64,000 bases of DNA from an uncultured Clostridia bacterium. Its GTDB lineage: Bacteria; Bacillota; Clostridia; Lachnospirales; Lachnospiraceae. The position numbers and the translations under genes are program-made. The DNA lies in contig CAOKDX010000007.1 of the NCBI GenBank assembly GCA_948467395.1, forward strand, positions 89,190 to 153,189, read 5' to 3'. The notes under the pieces are model-generated. The model was not told the DNA's origin, ran no database searches, and worked only from the letters and a program-made list of their open reading frames with translations. This document shows positions 46,704 to 55,054 of the stretch, in pieces. Numbering within the stretch: the first letter of the stretch is position 1; each line of letters begins with the position of its first letter.

Positions 46704-46782
46704 GTAGGATTTCAAATAAAGCGACAGCATGAAAAAGTCAACATTAAATGCGAAAAAAATTTATAATTTTTCATCTTTAGCA

Positions 46783-46826
46783 TTTTGCACAATAAACATA
46801 GCCGTTTTATTGTTACTTTTGCACAA
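46783..46826. repeat. Direct TTTTGCACAA repeats and hairpin near the prophage end
   Basis: TTTTGCACAA occurs at 46783-46792 and again at 46817-46826, with an ACAATAAA/TTTATTGT inverted repeat (46789-46796 and 46806-46813) in between. A related TTTGCGCA lies in inverse orientation at 47989-47996. The 22 bases from 46784 match those inward from 47996 at 15 positions (hand alignment). These may be transposase-binding ends. Confidence 0.4.
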
Positions 46827-46876
46827 ACAGACAAAACAAATAAAACCTGCTGCCTCTCTGCTGCCGGTTAATACAC

Positions 46877-47908
46877 TTATGCCGCTTTTTTTAACTCCTC
46901 CTCGAATAACTGTTCTGATGTTCTGTAATCAAATATGCGGCGCGGGTAATTATTGATCCACTCCTCTATTTTTTCAACCTCTCTTTGCGTCTTATCGTCA
47001 AAATCTGTCCCTTTCGGAATATGTCGCCGCACTAACTTGTTTTGATTTTCATTGCTCCCACGCTCCCAACTGCTGTATGGGTGGCAATAATATATCTTTG
47101 TACGGTCTTTCTTTCCCCTGCGGGATCGTTTCATTCCCTCATAGTCCGCAAACTCCGATCCATTGTCTACAGTTATGCTTTTGAATATATCCCGGAATTT
47201 TGCCCCTAGTTTTCTTTCCAGTCGATCCAATGCTTTAACCACCGCTGCCGCTGTATGCTCTTTAAGCAGCATAATAATTTCTTTTCGCGTTTTTCGTTCT
47301 GTGAGAACCAAAAGAGACTTTTTAGAAACGCCTCTTTTTCCTACAACGGTATCCATTTCCCAATGCCCAAACTCCCCACGCTCGTTAATCTCCTCTGGTC
47401 TTTTTTCTATGCTTTCGCCTTTGCTCGCCCTTTTTGCCGTCGTTCTCCTATATGCTCTCTTTTCCCCTTTTCTTTTTACTGGTAGCTGCTTATTTGTTAA
47501 ATTAAGGAATATACCTTTATCTATATAGCTGTATAATGTGGTAACGCATATTGAAAATGTGTAGCCCTCCTCTTTCACTTTTGCCAATGCTGCTGCCGGG
47601 CTATAGCCGTCATTTATTATAATTTCCTCTATGCGGTCTGCAAATTCTCTTTCTTTACCTATTTTAATATCTGCGCCTTTGGCAGCTAACGCCTCGTTTT
47701 TCTTTTCCTGTGCAATATCCGGGCTGTATCTTTCCTCTGTTGTGTAATCAGAATTTAACGCCTCAAACCTCCCTCGCTTGATTTCTCTATATATAGTGCT
47801 TATATGAACGCTTAAAATATCTGCTATTTCTTTTTTCTTATGTCCTGCTTTTAATAATACCTCTATTTTCAAGCGGTCGTTAAATGTTAATTGCTTGAAT
47901 GTTCTCAT
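46877..47908 (-). CDS. IS30-family transposase
   Basis: 343 residues. N-terminal helix-turn-helix (FNDRLKIEVLLKAGHKKKE, SVHISTIYREIKRG), second DNA-binding part (YSFIDKG-like TLYSYIDKGIF), then DDE integrase core: GHWEMDTVVGK with first Asp, TVDNGSEFADYEG with second Asp, and SWERGSNENQNKLVRRHIPKG with the Glu. All catalytic residues are intact. ATG 47908 is favoured by GGAGGG. It is either a resident IS or the integration enzyme of the prophage; its place at the extreme end and the lack of an integrase in view favour the latter (inference). Confidence 0.92.
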   Translation of the reverse strand: MRTFKQLTFNDRLKIEVLLKAGHKKKEIADILSVHISTIYREIKRGRFEALNSDYTTEERYSPDIAQEKKNEALAAKGADIKIGKEREFADRIEEIIINDGYSPAAALAKVKEEGYTFSICVTTLYSYIDKGIFLNLTNKQLPVKRKGEKRAYRRTTAKRASKGESIEKRPEEINERGEFGHWEMDTVVGKRGVSKKSLLVLTERKTRKEIIMLLKEHTAAAVVKALDRLERKLGAKFRDIFKSITVDNGSEFADYEGMKRSRRGKKDRTKIYYCHPYSSWERGSNENQNKLVRRHIPKGTDFDDKTQREVEKIEEWINNYPRRIFDYRTSEQLFEEELKKAA

Positions 47909-47928
47909 TGTGTACCCTCCTCTCACAA

Positions 47929-47973
47929 GAAAACGCCGTAGGCTATCCCATTTCGGTAGCCTGCGGCGTTTTC
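47929..47973. terminator. Strong hairpin between RHH gene and transposase
   Basis: GAAAACGCC..AGGCTA pairs with TAGCCT..GGCGTTTTC over about 18 bases. It ends transcripts from the RHH gene and shields the transposase, whose ribosome site lies eight bases further on. Confidence 0.8.
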
Positions 47974-47997
47974 TATGGCGTTGTATTATGCGCAAAT

Positions 47998-49727: not shown

Positions 49728-50276
49728 TTAACCCTCCATTTCTTTTGTTTTGTAGTGGTTGCACCGATCTTTGATACTGCAAACTTCGCAATTCTGATTT
49801 TTACATACAATACCATTGATCGTATTATCTAATTTGTTATCCGTGACCTTTAGCACCTTTACTAACCATGTAGGCACTTTTTCCGGCATGATAACATATA
49901 GATTTTCCAATATGCTTGTAAATTCATTGATTAGCATGACTGCCGTTACATACCAACCAATATAAATAGAGAAATCCAGATCAAGACTTATCTGCGTTCC
50001 TATGGTCTTTATTCCGTAGCCAATCAAAAACGCTACGCCGATCAAAACAAAATACATAGCTTTTTTAATGATCCCTTGTAGCCCTGTCTGGCTATTCCAC
50101 TCTTTCAAAAAAAAGGCTGCTTTTACCCAACCTGTCAAGTAATCAATCGCTACTGCTGCCATAAATAAAATAAGCAGCGTTGGTACTTTATTAAAAAGTG
50201 CCGCCACTGCTGTAAATACTGCTGATACGCTCAACTTTAACCCTCCAATATCTGATTTTAATAGTATTTCTTTCAT
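49728..50276 (-). CDS. Phage holin (TcdE-like family)
   Basis: 182 residues with three to four membrane helices (TLLILFMAAVAIDYLTGWV, AMYFVLIGVAFLIGYGI, YVTAVMLINEFTSILENL) and a long Cys-rich soluble tail (CKNQNCEVCSIKDRC). The AIDYLTGW motif marks phage_holin_4. It opens the membrane for the endolysin. The Cys cluster at the C-terminus is unusual and could bind metal. Start overlaps the stop of the small gene before it. Confidence 0.9.
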   Translation of the reverse strand: MKEILLKSDIGGLKLSVSAVFTAVAALFNKVPTLLILFMAAVAIDYLTGWVKAAFFLKEWNSQTGLQGIIKKAMYFVLIGVAFLIGYGIKTIGTQISLDLDFSIYIGWYVTAVMLINEFTSILENLYVIMPEKVPTWLVKVLKVTDNKLDNTINGIVCKNQNCEVCSIKDRCNHYKTKEMEG

Positions 50277-50587
50277 TCTGTGCCCTCCTCTCCTGTGATC
50301 GGCTCCATGCCCGGATCTGCCATTTCCCGCGGTTCCTCAATAACTGGCTCTTCATACACTGAACCGTCATTCGATAGAATAAAGCCGCCCTCAACTTCTT
50401 TCCATACCGTAGTATAATTTTCATATACTCCGTATGCCTCGCCCTGCTCGTTAAGCAATTCAATTTTTTCCGTATTGACAATATCCGCTTTCAAATCCGG
50501 GGATATAATCAATATTCTGCTCTCGCATAATCTTACGAACCCTGCCGGGTAGGTTCTCTTGGAACCTGCGAAACGTAATGTTTCCAT
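50273..50587 (-). CDS. Hypothetical phage protein
   Basis: 104 residues, acidic, no known domain. Predicted beta-rich N-terminus and Pro/Glu-rich tail (EEPVIEEPREMADPG). ATG 50587 has GGAGG nine bases before it, inside the 3' end of the reverse transcriptase gene, so 128 bases are used in two frames. Overlaps the holin by four bases. The function is unknown. Confidence 0.65.
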   Translation of the reverse strand: METLRFAGSKRTYPAGFVRLCESRILIISPDLKADIVNTEKIELLNEQGEAYGVYENYTTVWKEVEGGFILSNDGSVYEEPVIEEPREMADPGMEPITGEEGTE

Positions 50588-51746
50588 GCTCTATACCTCC
50601 ATTTTCTTTATTGAATACAAATAAGGAATTAAACAATTTATCCATATTTTGTATTGTCCGATATGCGTTTGTGTGGCTTATATGCCCTCTCCAAGACTTG
50701 TATTGTGTATATATTTCTTTGAACAATACTAAGCCCTCTAACTCTTTCTTTTTAAGCCTCTTTAGCTTTCTGCGTTCTCTGGTTATTGACGCCTTACACG
50801 GTTTCTTTATTATCTTTCCGCTTTCTGTCAAATAATGACGCGTTTTAAGAAATGTAAAACCACGGCTTATTTTTACAATCTGTGTTTTCTTCTCATTTAC
50901 TACAATTCCTAACTCTTTGTACTTTTCCCGCAATATATCTAAGCATTTTCTTAAATAGTTTTTATCTTTGTGAATTATGTAGCTGTCGTCCATGTATCTG
51001 CCATAGCATTTAATCCCTAATTTCTCTTTGATGAAATGATCTATAGTGTTAGGATAACTAATTGCTAAAATCTGTGAAATCTGGCTGCCTATCCCCAAAG
51101 ATTTTGCGGATCCGTCTTTTTCTCTGAATGGCTCTATTAGTTCTTTTGTTAAATTCTTAATGCGCTGATCCTTAAAATTCTTGTCAATTATGCTGTAACA
51201 ATGCTCGTGGCGTATGTTATCAAAATAACTGCTGAAATCAATCAGTAAAATATAGCCCTCGTTACTGAAATTGTTGTGCCTATAGTACCAGTGCAAGTGT
51301 TTATCCAATCTATTTAACGAAAAATGTATGCCTTTGTTTTCAAGGCTTGCGCCATTATCATATATCAGACTGTTAGACAGCACCGGCACTAGCGCATGAT
51401 CGCATAGTACCCTTTGTATGCAACGCTCCTTTATGTGAACGCTTTTAATATGCCTCATTTTCCCGCGTTCCCTCAAATCAAACTCAATAAATCCTTGTGC
51501 CACCGGATCCCCGGCGGCTAGTTTCTTCCGGCTATCGTTCGTTTGTTGTAATAGGTTCATTTCATACCGTTGTACGCTTGACTTCCAAGACACGCCTTTT
51601 TGTGAACGCTTAAAGGCACCAATTAAATTATTGGCGTCTAAAAGATTGTTGAAATTATCGTATTCCCCTAGCCGCGCACGTCGTTTTTCTTCCCGCGCCG
51701 CCTTTCTTCTTTGGTATCTAGCCTCATGCCTTTCTTTGCTATTCAT
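50460..51746 (-). CDS. DGR reverse transcriptase
   Basis: 428 residues. A basic N-terminal extension (3-26), RT palm motif A LIDFSSYFDNI (168-178), the DGR-type GIGSQISQ (218-225) in place of the usual QGxxxSP, and the catalytic YMDD (251-254). After this come thumb-like helices. It should copy the template RNA and mutate adenines. ATG 51746 was chosen for GGAGTG upstream; the longer frame to 51869 runs into the DGR RNA. Placed downstream of the template repeat as in known DGRs. C-terminal 128 bases overlap the next gene. Confidence 0.93.
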   Translation of the reverse strand: MNSKERHEARYQRRKAAREEKRRARLGEYDNFNNLLDANNLIGAFKRSQKGVSWKSSVQRYEMNLLQQTNDSRKKLAAGDPVAQGFIEFDLRERGKMRHIKSVHIKERCIQRVLCDHALVPVLSNSLIYDNGASLENKGIHFSLNRLDKHLHWYYRHNNFSNEGYILLIDFSSYFDNIRHEHCYSIIDKNFKDQRIKNLTKELIEPFREKDGSAKSLGIGSQISQILAISYPNTIDHFIKEKLGIKCYGRYMDDSYIIHKDKNYLRKCLDILREKYKELGIVVNEKKTQIVKISRGFTFLKTRHYLTESGKIIKKPCKASITRERRKLKRLKKKELEGLVLFKEIYTQYKSWRGHISHTNAYRTIQNMDKLFNSLFVFNKENGGIEHGNITFRRFQENLPGRVRKIMREQNIDYIPGFESGYCQYGKN

Positions 51747-51954
51747 TATAAATTCACTCCGTACAGTAAAATTTGACGTACCTACTAACTGCGTGACAAT
51801 ACCGGGTATGAAATAAACCGCGCACGTCTGCGGCTTACCATGCAAGCAGCGTCCACCCGATTGTATCAAAGTGACTATTTACCCTTGCCGGGTGGGTTAT
51901 CTACTCCTTTCCTCTGTGAGTAAAGCGGTTCACAAACCTTTTAATTACTCTGAC
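51747..51954 (-). ncRNA. DGR template RNA spacer between template repeat and RT
   Basis: 208 bases between the end of the template repeat and the RT start. In characterised DGRs (phage BPP-1) the RNA downstream of the template repeat binds RT-Avd and primes cDNA synthesis. Here a 7 bp inverted repeat CCACCCG (51853-51859) / CGGGTGG (51889-51895) can form a stem-loop. No conserved ORF. The boundaries of the RNA are inferred. Confidence 0.6.
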
Positions 51955-52084
51955 GAAATCCGGGGCGACGCCATTACTGTTGCGCGCGTCGTTGTTGTTG
52001 GCGTTGCCGTTGTTGTTGACATTGCAAAAGTTGGTAGTGTTCGACGCGGACGGCGACGAAAGCCACCAGTTGTAACGCGATCCG
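51955..52084 (-). repeat. DGR template repeat (TR)
   Basis: 130 bp, 33 adenines in the coding-strand core, including 13 AAC/AAT codons in the frame of the target. It aligns without gaps with the variable repeat at 52761-52890. All 14 differences are at template adenines (coding strand), with none at C, G or T. It lies between avd and the RT gene. Confidence 0.96.
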
Positions 52085-52105
52085 TACAGTAAATAACCCA
52101 TAATA

Positions 52106-52699
52106 TTATTTCTGCTCTGCTTTCTGTTTGCCTGCCTCCTGTTTTTTAATTCTCTTTGCTATTTTTCCGTTTGCTTTCCTCCAACCTTTTAGCACTGCAA
52201 TTTCAAACTCTACCTTATCCACATAAGGTAATAATTTGTTTACGTCTATAGGTAGGATTTGCATAACGTATTGTAAATCTTGCAATAATATTTCACAATC
52301 TTTTATAGCCGCGTTCTGGTAATCCCTCCTTATTTCCAACTCGTGAAAATTGACCGGATAACCATTTGCTCTTACTACATGATCTACAAGATTGTTTAAT
52401 GTTGCAATTATCTTTTGCCGTAACATTTCTGTAACCCATGCCGGGTATTCTCTCAAAATTTCATGCGTTTCTAGTTCCTCCTCCAACTTGTACGCCATGC
52501 GTATAAACTTACCTACTCGCGGGTTTTTCTCTGCGATTTGCTTTATTTCCTCCTCGGTAAAACTTCCTAAGTATTTTCCTGTGGTTGTCTTAATCCCAAA
52601 ATTCCGTAATAAAATTCTTGTTAATTCTACCCTAAGTTTTGCCGCTGTGTTATACGCCTCCATTTCGGAAATGCCCCGCTCATTTTTCAACACTGCCAT
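52106..52699 (-). CDS. avd: DGR accessory protein, Avd-like
   Basis: 197 residues, entirely helical and basic at the C-terminus (KGWRKANGKIAKRIKKQ). Residues about 95-170 (RRDYQNAAIKDCEILLQDL, LPIDVNKLLPYVDKVEFEI) fit the four-helix Avd bundle, which forms a pentamer that binds RT and DGR RNA. It is larger than BPP-1 Avd (128 residues) with an extra N-terminal part. Located between target and template, as in classic DGRs. Confidence 0.8.
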   Translation of the reverse strand: MAVLKNERGISEMEAYNTAAKLRVELTRILLRNFGIKTTTGKYLGSFTEEEIKQIAEKNPRVGKFIRMAYKLEEELETHEILREYPAWVTEMLRQKIIATLNNLVDHVVRANGYPVNFHELEIRRDYQNAAIKDCEILLQDLQYVMQILPIDVNKLLPYVDKVEFEIAVLKGWRKANGKIAKRIKKQEAGKQKAEQK

Positions 52700-52719
52700 T
52701 TTGTCTTATTCCTCCCCTG

Positions 52720-52738
52720 CCGCCCCATATAGGGGCGG
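52720..52738. other. DGR target-recognition stem-loop downstream of VR
   Basis: CCGCCCC (52720-52726), loop ATATA, GGGGCGG (52732-52738): a perfect 7 bp GC stem 22 bases beyond the VR end and just after the target stop. A comparable hairpin/cruciform is needed for homing in BPP-1. There is no T-run, so it is not a terminator. Confidence 0.75.
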
Positions 52739-52748
52739 GATCTAAAGA

Positions 52749-53687
52749 TTAACCGATAAGGAAAGCCGGGGCGACGCCATAACTGTTGCGCGCGTCGCTG
52801 CTGCTGGCGCCGCCGTAGTTGTTGACAAGGCAAAAGTTGGGAGTGTACGACGCGGACGGCGACGAAAGCCACCAGTCGCAACGCGATCCGCTGTCTGCCT
52901 TTCCTTTTCCAAGTCCTTTAATAACGTGTTTATATGATCTTTGGTAGCCCTCCCATTGTTTACTACCGCCGGAACCATACCCCGCCTCGCTCCATGCTAC
53001 ATTTCCAAATACTTCTACCTCGGTTGGCAAAAACAATTTTCTACCGTACCAACTCCAACCACCCTTAGTACTTTCTAAGCGTCTGCACTCTAATATTGCA
53101 TTTTGTAAGTCTGCCGGAAATGTTGTTAGAATGGTTTCTAAACTTGTTTTTAATTTTGACGCATTAAAGCCGCCTGTGTTTACTGGATCGTCATTGTATG
53201 AATAAGTCGCCGCTAAACAATCCCTTGTCTGCATTAAAACATGAGGCTTTCTAATCGCCGTATCGCCAAAATAAAGCATGGTATTAAATCCCATAATCTC
53301 CGCGCGCACCGCCTCGCCGCTCGTTGTTGAAAAGTCGATATAATCATACAAATGTAATCCGCTAAAATCTTCTGTCGCCACTTTTGCTTTTAGCTGCGCA
53401 AAAGTCATATTCAGATTAACGCCGTCATATCCTGCCCCGGTTCGATCTCGTAAATCTTGTATTGCCTCGGCAATCACAACGCCGTCTGGTATGTAGCCAT
53501 TTTCTGTAATGTTTAGGCTTTCTACGATCTTTTCCGCGTCAAATTTACTGTTCTTCAGATATAACAAATTTTCCAAAAGTTGAATATATCGCGGGTTAAA
53601 TTCTTCGTATGATCCCGGCGTGTCCTTTGTCATAGCCTCCATGACTAAATTAAATACTGGATTATCCGCGAGTGGTAATTTTGCCAT
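52749..53687 (-). CDS. DGR target: tail-tip protein with variable lectin-like domain
   Basis: 312 residues. Residues 1-190 hold a helical/structural region; residues 200-310 resemble the DUF6273 formylglycine/C-type-lectin-like fold (FLPTEVEVFGNVAWSEAG, SGSRCDWWLSSPSA, YGVAPAF). The variable repeat encodes residues 267-309 at the very C-terminus, as in all DGR targets. Located among tail genes, so it probably forms the receptor-binding tip of the phage tail. Start ATG 53687. Confidence 0.92.
   Translation of the reverse strand: MAKLPLADNPVFNLVMEAMTKDTPGSYEEFNPRYIQLLENLLYLKNSKFDAEKIVESLNITENGYIPDGVVIAEAIQDLRDRTGAGYDGVNLNMTFAQLKAKVATEDFSGLHLYDYIDFSTTSGEAVRAEIMGFNTMLYFGDTAIRKPHVLMQTRDCLAATYSYNDDPVNTGGFNASKLKTSLETILTTFPADLQNAILECRRLESTKGGWSWYGRKLFLPTEVEVFGNVAWSEAGYGSGGSKQWEGYQRSYKHVIKGLGKGKADSGSRCDWWLSSPSASYTPNFCLVNNYGGASSSDARNSYGVAPAFLIG
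52761..52890 (-). repeat. DGR variable repeat (VR)
   Basis: 130 bp at the 3' end of the target gene. Ten codons differ from the TR: Tyr to Cys, Asn to Asp, Asn to Tyr (3), Asn to Leu, Asn to Gly, Asn to Ser (3), Thr to Pro, Asp to Ala count as the encoded changes, by 14 adenine substitutions. The 3' GC-rich part (GGCGTCGCCCCGG) is conserved and may act as the initiation-of-homing site. Confidence 0.95.
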
Positions 53688-53701
53688 TTCTTATGCCCTC
53701 C

Positions 53702-54085
53702 TTACATGGTATCGTTGATCTTGAATGTCATCTCGAAATCGCTATCTTTTCCTTTTGCCTTAAAGTTTTTGATAGTAACTAAATCTCCGTCGGCGTCTAC
53801 AAGCGCAATTTCGCTAATATCCTTGTCTACTAATTCGTTTTCATCTAACGTACAGTAGTATTTAATTTGTGTGTCGCTTATAATTTCAAATTTATCAATA
53901 TCTTTTCTGTAAACCTCCTCTCCTAACTCCTGCTGCCCCTCACTTGGTTCTAATACTTCCCCAGCGACATTAACGCCGCCAATTCCAAAAGCCATTTTCG
54001 TAATTTGCGGTAACTCCTGCTGCCCGGCTCTCGCAAGTAGCATTTTCTTTTTTGCTATCGTTGTTGTGATTGCTTTTGTTGCCAT
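53702..54085 (-). CDS. Tail-fibre-like phage protein
   Basis: 127 residues, beginning MATKAITTTIAKKKMLLARA, a motif of phage tail-fibre N-terminal proteins in Clostridia (often annotated phage tail protein/DUF3751-like). Probably links the baseplate to the variable receptor-binding protein next in the operon. Identification by N-terminal similarity and position only. Confidence 0.6.
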   Translation of the reverse strand: MATKAITTTIAKKKMLLARAGQQELPQITKMAFGIGGVNVAGEVLEPSEGQQELGEEVYRKDIDKFEIISDTQIKYYCTLDENELVDKDISEIALVDADGDLVTIKNFKAKGKDSDFEMTFKINDTM

Positions 54086-54088
54086 TTT

Positions 54089-55054
54089 CTAAACTTCCTC
54101 CTTTATTTCCTTTGCGTCAAGTTTTTTGCTACCGTCCAATTTCGCGGAACCGTCCAAATACCATAAATCCCGCCGCATTGTTACGGTTATATCCTCAAAA
54201 GTTTCCGTCGTTTTTACTGACGTTTCCAACTCTACCGCCGCTGTTTGTTCCCACAAAACGGCGTCAAGTTTTTTGCTACCGTCCAATTTTACGGAACCAT
54301 TTAAGCACCATATTTTAGGATTGCTCAACCACCAATTAACAGTTGTTTCTAACTCCGTTTCCCCTTTCGTTTCTTTCATTTCAAGAAATGTCGTTATTTC
54401 ATTTTCTATAGCCTCTAACTTAAACTGCTCTGCCGTTTTCGCTTTCGTTTCTAATTCTAATGCTATATTCTGCCGCCATATTGCCGCATTTAATAGCCTG
54501 CTGCCATCTAACTTTACAGAACCGTCTAAGTACCATGCGTCTTTTCGGTTTCCCCACCAATTAACTGTTGTTTCCAAGTCAAGTGCTTTTGGCGTTTCTA
54601 TCATTTCAAGAAATGCCGTAGCCTCATACGCAAAATATATATAGATGTTTAATCCTAAAATTCCGTCCAGAGTTTTATATATTGTCCCTACATTATTCAC
54701 TGCGTCGCCAACAATAATGCTCAATTCGTCATTGTCGTAATCTGGTGCTAAATCAATCTCACTCGAATAGTTTTGTATCAGATTTAGAATATCCTTAAAG
54801 CTAAGATTTTTCTTTGCAACTCTTATTAGTACCACTATGCGGCGTTCCTCTATGCTTTGTTCCGGTGTTGGCACTATCCCTAGTTCCTCCTCAAATCTCG
54901 CTATTCCGTGTTCATCTGATGTAGTGATAAACATATTCGCTAATAACCGGTCTACCTCTTTATTTATATTGTCAAATTCCGGCTGCTCTGCTTTGCATAT
55001 TTCTTTCATTTCCCGGATTTGTCCTACTACTCTTGGGTAATAATCAATCAACAT
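54089..55054 (-). CDS. DUF2313 (YmfQ/XkdU-like) baseplate protein with repeat-rich C-terminus
   Basis: 321 residues. Residues 1-145 are DUF2313 (MLIDYYPRVVGQIREMKEI, EARFEEELGI, DILNLIQNYSSEIDL), a baseplate wedge family. Residues 147-317 consist of about 75-residue repeats containing WYLDGSVKLDGSRLLNA-like and ETTVNWW motifs: two full and one partial. Such KLDGS repeats may bind metal or form fibre contacts. A 29-base identical DNA segment is found twice (54114-54142 and 54261-54289). Confidence 0.85.
   Translation of the reverse strand: MLIDYYPRVVGQIREMKEICKAEQPEFDNINKEVDRLLANMFITTSDEHGIARFEEELGIVPTPEQSIEERRIVVLIRVAKKNLSFKDILNLIQNYSSEIDLAPDYDNDELSIIVGDAVNNVGTIYKTLDGILGLNIYIYFAYEATAFLEMIETPKALDLETTVNWWGNRKDAWYLDGSVKLDGSRLLNAAIWRQNIALELETKAKTAEQFKLEAIENEITTFLEMKETKGETELETTVNWWLSNPKIWCLNGSVKLDGSKKLDAVLWEQTAAVELETSVKTTETFEDITVTMRRDLWYLDGSAKLDGSKKLDAKEIKEEV
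54104..54616 (-). repeat. Tandem KLDGS-type protein repeats
   Basis: Codes for repeat units at residues about 147-222, 223-291 and 292-317 of the DUF2313 protein, each with a (L/A)DGSxKLDGS core. Identical 29-base segments in the coding DNA point to recent duplication. Confidence 0.8.

Follow-up and report, generated by a model that had tools for sequence, protein, structure and literature searches.

A probable diversity-generating retroelement in a contractile-tail prophage from Lachnospiraceae, with a variant hairpin after its variable repeat

The minus strand of a 64,000-nucleotide (nt) stretch of DNA from an uncultured Clostridia bacterium of the Lachnospiraceae (GenBank assembly GCA_948467395.1, contig CAOKDX010000007.1, positions 89,190 to 153,189; hereafter the window) carries part of a prophage and, within it, a diversity-generating retroelement (DGR). 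Read from the tail side, the genes encode a tail tape measure protein, a LysM protein, a YqbQ-like protein, a sheath initiator, baseplate J, a Gp48-like protein and a tail-collar fibre N-domain. Downstream of the last of these is a DUF6273 gene whose 3′ end is formed by a variable repeat (VR), followed by a hairpin, an avd-like gene, a template repeat (TR), a spacer, a reverse transcriptase (RT) gene, a small overlapping open reading frame (ORF), a holin and an endolysin (Table 1). We interpret this arrangement as the DGR of a contractile-tail prophage in which mutagenic homing has occurred, and put the probability of this reading at about 0.93.

The TR and VR, each 130 nt long, align without gaps and are 89% identical in a repeat search of the window; this search and a pairwise alignment agree exactly with the boundaries drawn in the initial annotation, and the homology stops sharply at both ends. 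On the coding strand, the two repeats differ at 14 of 130 positions, all 14 at adenines of the template and none at the other 97 bases (33 template adenines, hypergeometric p = 3.7e-10), with G in the VR at seven of the changed sites, T at four and C at three. The TR adenines are distributed over the first (16), second (16) and third (one) codon positions, and 13 of the 43 TR codons are AAY. The changes fall seven at first and seven at second positions, none at third, and nine of the 12 changed codons read AAC or AAT in the TR. Over positions 1–118, and thus leaving aside position 126 (see below), the homing-type changes are 13 of 13 at A (32 adenines, p = 5.0e-9). This confinement to template adenines bears out the earlier proposal that mutagenic homing has taken place. 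In the window's genome, the only long matches to the TR are the TR itself and this VR (VR1), the other four at E ≤ 10 being just 14–18 bp. Other DUF6273 genes do occur in that genome (G000, contigs C2, C5, C7:24070, C15 and C25), and none has a TR-like DNA match in the same search at E ≤ 10.

Among the records compared, Bacterium D16-51 (locus L011) is nearest by RT, together with an uncultured Lachnospiraceae genome (L016) that was matched through an RT remnant. The L011 module is 93.7% identical to the window over 3.6 kb, and its own TR and VR1 differ at 15 sites, all at A (position 126 counted). The TRs of the window and L011 differ at two positions only, 109 (T in the window, C in L011) and 118 (C and A, respectively), neither of which is A in the window TR, and the L011 markers 109C and 118A are present in both VR1 and a second variable repeat (VR2) of L011. 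The window VR and L011 VR1 differ at 21 of 130 positions, namely 19 template-A sites and the two markers. Because the L011 markers occur in its own VR, and because the VRs otherwise diverge at template adenines only, TR and VR have evidently exchanged sequence, with A-mutagenesis, after the window and L011 lineages split. These comparisons support, in the evolutionary sense, the initial annotation's claim of recent activity. Outside the VR, the two prophages differ at 61 of 797 sites in the rest of the target gene, 54 of 594 in avd and 81 of 1290 in the RT gene, with 2 of 130 in the TR and 2 of 202 in the spacer (51753–51954). The low divergence of TR plus spacer (51753–52084; 4/332, versus 135/1884 for avd plus RT; Fisher p = 3e-6 with sites treated as independent) would fit a constrained RNA.

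Could ordinary gene conversion or duplication between the repeats, with an A-only pattern arising by chance or selection, explain the same data? Homology-driven transfer alone could yield the shared markers at 109 and 118. The restriction of all 14 changes to A, at the significance given above, argues against it, as does the presence of an RT and an Avd relative beside the repeats. Furthermore, we mechanically scanned 119 RT loci including the window, chosen by RT similarity, for repeat pairs with 80% of mismatches at A and p < 1e-4. Such pairs were found at 88 of the 119 loci (92 A-biased pairs), and 31 loci had no passing pair. Among the latter, L017, L018, L023 (14/19) and L025 (10/15) are all A-biased and fell below threshold, and L016 and L034 have no TR. 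This A-restriction across lineages refutes gene conversion as the explanation, which we regard as extremely improbable, in favour of mutagenic homing.

Two close relatives illustrate what happens when the machinery is lost. In L016, the equivalents of window positions 52744–54100 and 50311–50748 now adjoin (junction L016:5999–6000), so that the hairpin, avd, the TR and most of the RT gene are gone, and no further match to the window-type RT was found in that genome. L034 keeps 52627–54100, including the first bases of avd, together with RT pieces; its TR and most of its RT and avd genes are deleted (site L034:6001–6316), and its hairpin stem is shortened. Both retain the 312-aa target frame, and both show the state of the target once it is frozen. 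Decay therefore happens in this phage group, which lends some weight to the idea that the window cassette, too, no longer works and that its A-only changes are a relic of homing in the past. We consider this unlikely. The RT, Avd and target reading frames are all intact in the window, and the window has no non-A difference between TR and VR, as opposed to 7/21 in the frozen VR of L016 and 6/16 in that of L034 (positions 18–125, scored against the window TR as their own TRs are lost, so that part of the non-A share may be older change in the TR). Scored against their own TRs over the same positions, the window VR, L011 VR1 and L011 VR2 have 0/11, 0/13 and 0/15 non-A differences, respectively.

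The 3′-most of the 14 changes, A to C at position 126, is of a different kind. All six VRs compared in the phage family have C at position 126, namely four copies of VR1 (window, L011, L034, L016) and two of VR2 (L070, which is part of the L011 prophage, and a homologous contig, L101); both TRs (window and L011) have A. In these alignments it is a fixed difference between the initiation-of-mutagenic-homing sequence on the VR side (IMH) and its counterpart on the TR side (IMH*), and the idea that all 14 changes are hypermutation is ruled out. Thus, the 14 of 14 counted in the initial annotation stands as a count and as A-restriction, and 13 of 13 are left as hypermutation. Position 126 and the bases after it would make the IMH of the VR distinct from the IMH* of the TR. 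Judged from the same markers, the copied tract extends at least to position 118 and ends before 126, the TR keeping GATT and the VR keeping GCTT; natural markers thereby bracket the end of the tract between 118 and 126 without an experiment.

The same difference recurs in the relatives. At 90% RT identity, the 88 loci form 74 clusters. The mismatch closest to the 3′ end, written as TR>VR, is A>C in 36 of these clusters, A>G, A>T and C>T in 11 each, and another in five. Elsewhere in the 92 pairs, adenines change least often to C (242 times, against 706 to G and 415 to T), and the excess of A>C at the 3′-most site is significant (Fisher on A changes, p = 4e-13). GCTT lies near the VR end opposite a different TR sequence in 57 of 74 clusters (GATT 43, GCTC 9, GATC 2, GACT 2, GGCA 1), in both repeats in six and in neither in 11, BPP-1 included; the reverse arrangement is found in one of 74. 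A held-out set comprised 67 new locus ids, 31 of which were not within 90% of a first-set RT, with 26 having pairs (29 pairs) in 22 clusters. Here, GCTT faces a different TR sequence in 18 of 22 clusters (GATT in 15, three others once each), is absent in three, is the same in both repeats in one and is reversed in 1/22, and A>C is again the change closest to the 3′ end in 18 of the 22. Both viral scans feeding the two sets took the best 80 loci each, and the counts therefore describe near relatives, not all DGRs. Within that scope, GATT in the TR and GCTT in the VR is a recurrent putative switch among related DGRs.

As in other DGRs, a hairpin or cruciform lies downstream of the VR. In the published consensus (Guo 2011), a GC stem of 7–10 bp carries a GRNA tetraloop, from which the 5-nt loop of the window, TATAT, departs. 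In the survey, hairpins within 65 nt were found 3′ of the VR in 72 of 92 pairs, 3′ of the TR in one and 5′ of the VR in four (shuffled sequence: 177/4600); in the held-out set they follow the VR in 21 of 29 pairs, with none after the TR or before the VR (0/29 each). Loops of 5 nt predominate (47, with 17 of 4 nt and eight of 6 nt). They include CTTGT, CTTGC, CTCGT, CGCGT, CGTGT/C, TTTAT, TTCAT, TATAT, TAGAT/C and a few others, the L015 loop lying on the opposite strand (ACAAG). Named phages have GGAA (Faecalibacterium phage Roos), CTTGC (Acutalibacter phage Fontainebleau) and CTCGT (Roseburia phage Shimadzu, class B), and one Vibrio, one Pseudoalteromonas and one Aeromonas phage have GATA. By loop class, the 74 clusters divide into 35 of class B, one inverted B, 12 of class A, nine other and 17 with none, and the 22 held-out clusters into 11 B, two A, three other and six none.

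Counting one loop per RT cluster, bases 1 and 4 of the 5-nt loops form a Watson-Crick pair in 34 of 39 (permutation mean 19.4; 0/20,000), and in 10 of 12 held-out loops (mean 5.0; 18/20,000). To allow for ancestry, we then drew independent pairs from the RT tree and scored whether a change of base 1 between A/T and G/C is accompanied by the same kind of change at base 4. The first set gives six pairs on starred branches, mostly scoring 6-0-0 and otherwise 5-0-1 (median p = 0.031). The combined sets give eight, and their 200 pairings (median p = 0.008) divide into 120 that score 8-0-0, 65 that score 7-0-1 and 15 that score 6-0-2. When the test is confined to loops with C or T as first base, base 4 follows base 1 in 8/8 independent changes in 200/200 pairings. 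Indeed, both pair types occur in a single genome, with TTTAT after VR1 and CGTGT after VR2 of L011. At the level of the compared loops, these results demonstrate covariation of bases 1 and 4. The exceptions GCAAT, GTAAT and GCTAA have G and A at bases 1 and 4, as in GRNA loops. CTTG and TTTA may resemble known stable DNA mini-loops. What the machinery reads may be the shape of the hairpin tip, in which the 1–4 pair would close a mini-loop of two bases and one unpaired pyrimidine would follow; such a tip would stand in for the GRNA tetraloop that BPP-1 has. We give this model roughly even odds.

An artefact of hairpin picking, or shared ancestry, might mimic such a rule, given that the classes were named after the first set had been seen, that loop bases could be co-inherited and that both sets of loci were drawn from one collection and have related RTs. 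However, the permutation used every 5-nt loop regardless of class, the class rule, although written after the first set, was applied unchanged to the held-out set, which repeats the result, and the independent-pairs tests correct for ancestry. The two pair types of L011 and the pipeline's recovery of the annotated TR and VR of BPP-1 with its GAAA hairpin also argue against an artefact, which we judge to be quite unlikely.

The sister prophage has a predicted second target in a non-tail gene, located between RNase H and PemK-like genes of the early region, about 31 kb from the TR. Its VR2 is homologous to TR positions 18–130, over which 16 of 16 differences lie at A (p = 1.3e-11, the 113 bases containing 30 adenines); positions 1–17 are non-homologous (12 differences, three at A). 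VR2 is followed by its own 7-bp hairpin. Family searches with the second target protein returned DUF6273 only. When 19 kb of the early region of the L011 prophage were compared with the window's genome, the VR and TR alone gave matches. In the homologue L101, VR2 differs from that of L011 at 15 sites, 14 of them template-A and one G/A, and the upstream gene body at 31 of 500. This candidate target outside the tail region is a further instance of a known pattern, since earlier papers already describe two-target phage DGRs (PMC10743442, PMC11792537) and remote DGR targets in cyanobacteria (PMC7517822). Four more phage loci, L137, L142, L170 and L173, have one TR with two VRs, and in L137, L142 and L170 hairpins follow both VRs.

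By analogy with BPP-1, a TR-spacer transcript would be bound by RT and Avd, reverse transcription would start near the 3′ end of the TR with adenines misread, and the complementary DNA (cDNA) would replace the VR. The DGR would diversify the end of the target gene, where the repeat spans 43 codons; the gene lies next to that of the tail fibre, and its DUF6273 product is putatively C-type-lectin-like. A GC hairpin follows the VR and not the TR, and VR2 of the sister phage has a hairpin of its own. A broader joint proposal, to which we assign a fifty-fifty chance, is that DGR target hairpins conserve tip geometry and not loop sequence (a two-base mini-loop with a loop 1–4 pair of C-G, T-A, or G.A in GRNA), that a second tip class, with an extra unpaired pyrimidine, is used by a large set of DGRs from gut and rumen phages, that of the window among them, alongside a fixed GATT (TR)/GCTT (VR) switch that determines direction, and that in this phage family the same machinery also hypermutates a non-tail early-region protein. 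The covarying tip and the switch would provide testable rules for cDNA homing into the VR, a step called incompletely understood in a 2026 paper (PMC12875486). They would also offer simple marks by which remote second targets, like the early-region gene of the sister phage, could be found. In the literature searched, which omits much of the subscription literature and was available as abstracts and excerpts, we found no description of the 5-nt loop tip or of the GATT/GCTT switch.

Several observations pull in the other direction. Both folding signals from the window are modest, with z −1.83 for its hairpin taken singly as DNA and z −1.06 for TR plus spacer as RNA. The scan rule finds no hairpin in 20 of 92 pairs, including nd12, nd4, Lelie, Brigit, Toutatis and BalMu-1; the loops GGAGA, GGTGA and TTCTT lie outside the tip model; and the next best loop pair, 1–2, also departs mildly from chance (36/2000 permutations). 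On the RT tree, classes A and B intermingle, requiring at least 5–6 changes, so that loop class is not strictly tied to RT clade, and despite clustering on the tree it was rejected as a clade marker. L011 VR2, taken over all 130 positions, has just 19 of 28 differences at A, and L101 VR2 has one non-A among 14 differences from the L011 TR. Divergence between the prophages ranges from 0 to 17% in 200-bp blocks, and as these prophages are mosaic, a recombination tract could account for the low divergence of TR and spacer. Lastly, the Avd assignment is a weak family match only (PHROG 3206, 5.8e-5), and comparison with solved structures gave nothing or non-credible matches (best E 0.037).

The cassette itself has the expected components, its RT and Avd-like genes lying on either side of the TR as first annotated. 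DGR RTs follow a motif-4 rule, (I/L/V)GxxxSQ. The RT of the window has an intact active site, with YMDD at 253, the motif-4 sequence IGSQISQ at 221 (both in a 430-aa frame) and DFSSYFD, and its best solved relative is 8ub7, ‘Reverse transcriptase’ (8.3e-18), presumably the BPP-1 RT. The Avd-like protein was aligned with relatives including the annotated Avd of Shimadzu; where most of the aligned Avd proteins pass directly from the first conserved block to the second, it has a 49-aa insert, and the alignment replaces the notion of an extra N-terminal domain with an Avd-like N-terminus and an internal insert. It is a putative accessory protein, no solved structure matching it credibly. The target protein is assigned to DUF6273 by Pfam at sequence level, and a search of solved structures gave no match to it; its lectin likeness is taken from the literature, where a DUF6273-like domain is reported to resemble C-type lectins (PMC10743442). 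Together, the RT motifs, the Avd relative, the TR, the VR in a DUF6273 target, the TR/VR difference at the 3′ end and the hairpin after the VR substantiate the annotation of a complete DGR. As the testable DGR features are present and the GRNA loop is not, we read the element as a DGR and its hairpin and IMH set as a variant. The cassette is thus ordinary, the hairpin tip being the variant part. On its own, such a standard cassette adds one member to the DGRs, and its value is comparative.

Table 1. Positions of the retroelement features in the window and of the related second targets
Feature	Position	Strand	Basis or remark
TR	51955-52084	minus	Repeat search and alignment
VR1	52761-52890	minus	Repeat search and alignment; 3′ end of target gene
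IMH switch in VR, GCTT, fixed C at 52765	52763..52766	minus	4/4 VR1 and 2/2 VR2 of phage family; same site in relatives
IMH* counterpart in TR, GATT, A at 51959	51957..51960	minus	TR/VR alignment
Hairpin/cruciform 3′ of VR, 7-bp GC stem, 5-nt loop TATAT on coding strand	52720..52738		22 nt after VR
Target gene, 312 aa, DUF6273 at residues 152-311	52749..53687	minus	ORF; Pfam DUF6273 43.4 bits; aligned with three relatives
avd-like gene, 197 aa	52106..52699	minus	PHROG 3206 Avd, E 5.8e-5, residues 78-196; alignment with relatives' Avd-position proteins
TR-RT spacer, presumed RNA part recruiting RT/Avd and priming cDNA	51747..51954	minus	Role by analogy with BPP-1
DGR reverse transcriptase, 428 aa	50460..51746	minus	RVT_1 2.7e-16; PHROG 1423 8.9e-71; start set by comparison with L011
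104-aa ORF, 128 bp overlap with RT 3′ end	50273..50587	minus	ORF list; no family found in family searches
Edge of the prophage with an IS30-family transposase gene (46877-47995), the carrier's probable integrase	46729..47995	minus	NF033563 241.8 bits
Second target gene, 213 aa, DUF6273, ends in VR2	L070:3086-3727		L011 prophage, between RNase H and PemK-like genes
Second-target homologue	L101:3119-3757		IMG/VR contig 2149837006_000115

Among known systems, BPP-1 (AY029185.2) shares the order target (VR)-bbp7-TR-RT, where we take bbp7 to be avd, as well as a GC hairpin 3′ of the VR and A-biased changes (18/22 by the repeat scan). It differs in its target (Mtd, not DUF6273), in the hairpin (4 nt after the VR instead of 22, with loop GAAA instead of TATAT) and in its shorter Avd (128 aa from a 387-base CDS, or coding sequence, versus 197 aa), and the RTs are 26% identical over the matched part. 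The nearest named phage by RT is Roseburia phage Shimadzu (LR596903.1; 48% over 87%), which shares the order target-Avd-TR-RT and a class B loop; unlike the window, it has a 136-aa Avd without the insert and an integrase that is annotated as a pseudogene and not as of the IS30 type. Descriptions of Faecalibacterium phage Lagaffe (PMC5883640, PMC11792537) report an IS30-family integrase, a contractile-tail prophage and a DGR, as here, with two VRs in Lagaffe_CP; its targets are Mtd-like, not DUF6273. Like the sister phage, nd4 and nd12 (tentaclins) have one TR and two targets, both with C-type-lectin domains and one DUF6273-like, but keep both in one cassette (PMC10743442), whereas the second target of L011 lies in the early region; our scan found no hairpin after their VRs, unlike the window. 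Nanoarchaeota DUSEL4 DGRs likewise combine a lineage-specific hairpin loop with an IMH/IMH* switch, but have a GRA triloop and TGGGGT/TGGAAT, where the window group has a 5-nt YNNRY loop and GCTT/GATT (PMC4372165).

The IS30-family transposase is at a prophage edge, as described for Lagaffe, and this edge is common to L011 and L016, whose blastn homology to the window stops at 46730 and 46729, respectively, where the flanks differ. On the opposite side, the prophage of the window is cut by the end of the contig, which coincides with the end of the window. A 17-base string, read by eye from the sequence, is present at both edges of the L011 prophage. On the other side of the L011 contig, a 101-aa frame matches only the helix-turn-helix part of this IS30-family transposase (C206:695-862, 51%) and is reminiscent of a repressor/transposase pair. 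D16-51 has a second RT (L262; G434:C167:6470-7510), 30% identical, which shares its contig with a second IS30-type transposase (61%). Finally, the Gp48-like tail gene contains three imperfect 52-nt direct repeats at 54114–54537; its product, with 321 aa in the window, is longer than the versions of L016 (304 aa) and L034 (246 aa).

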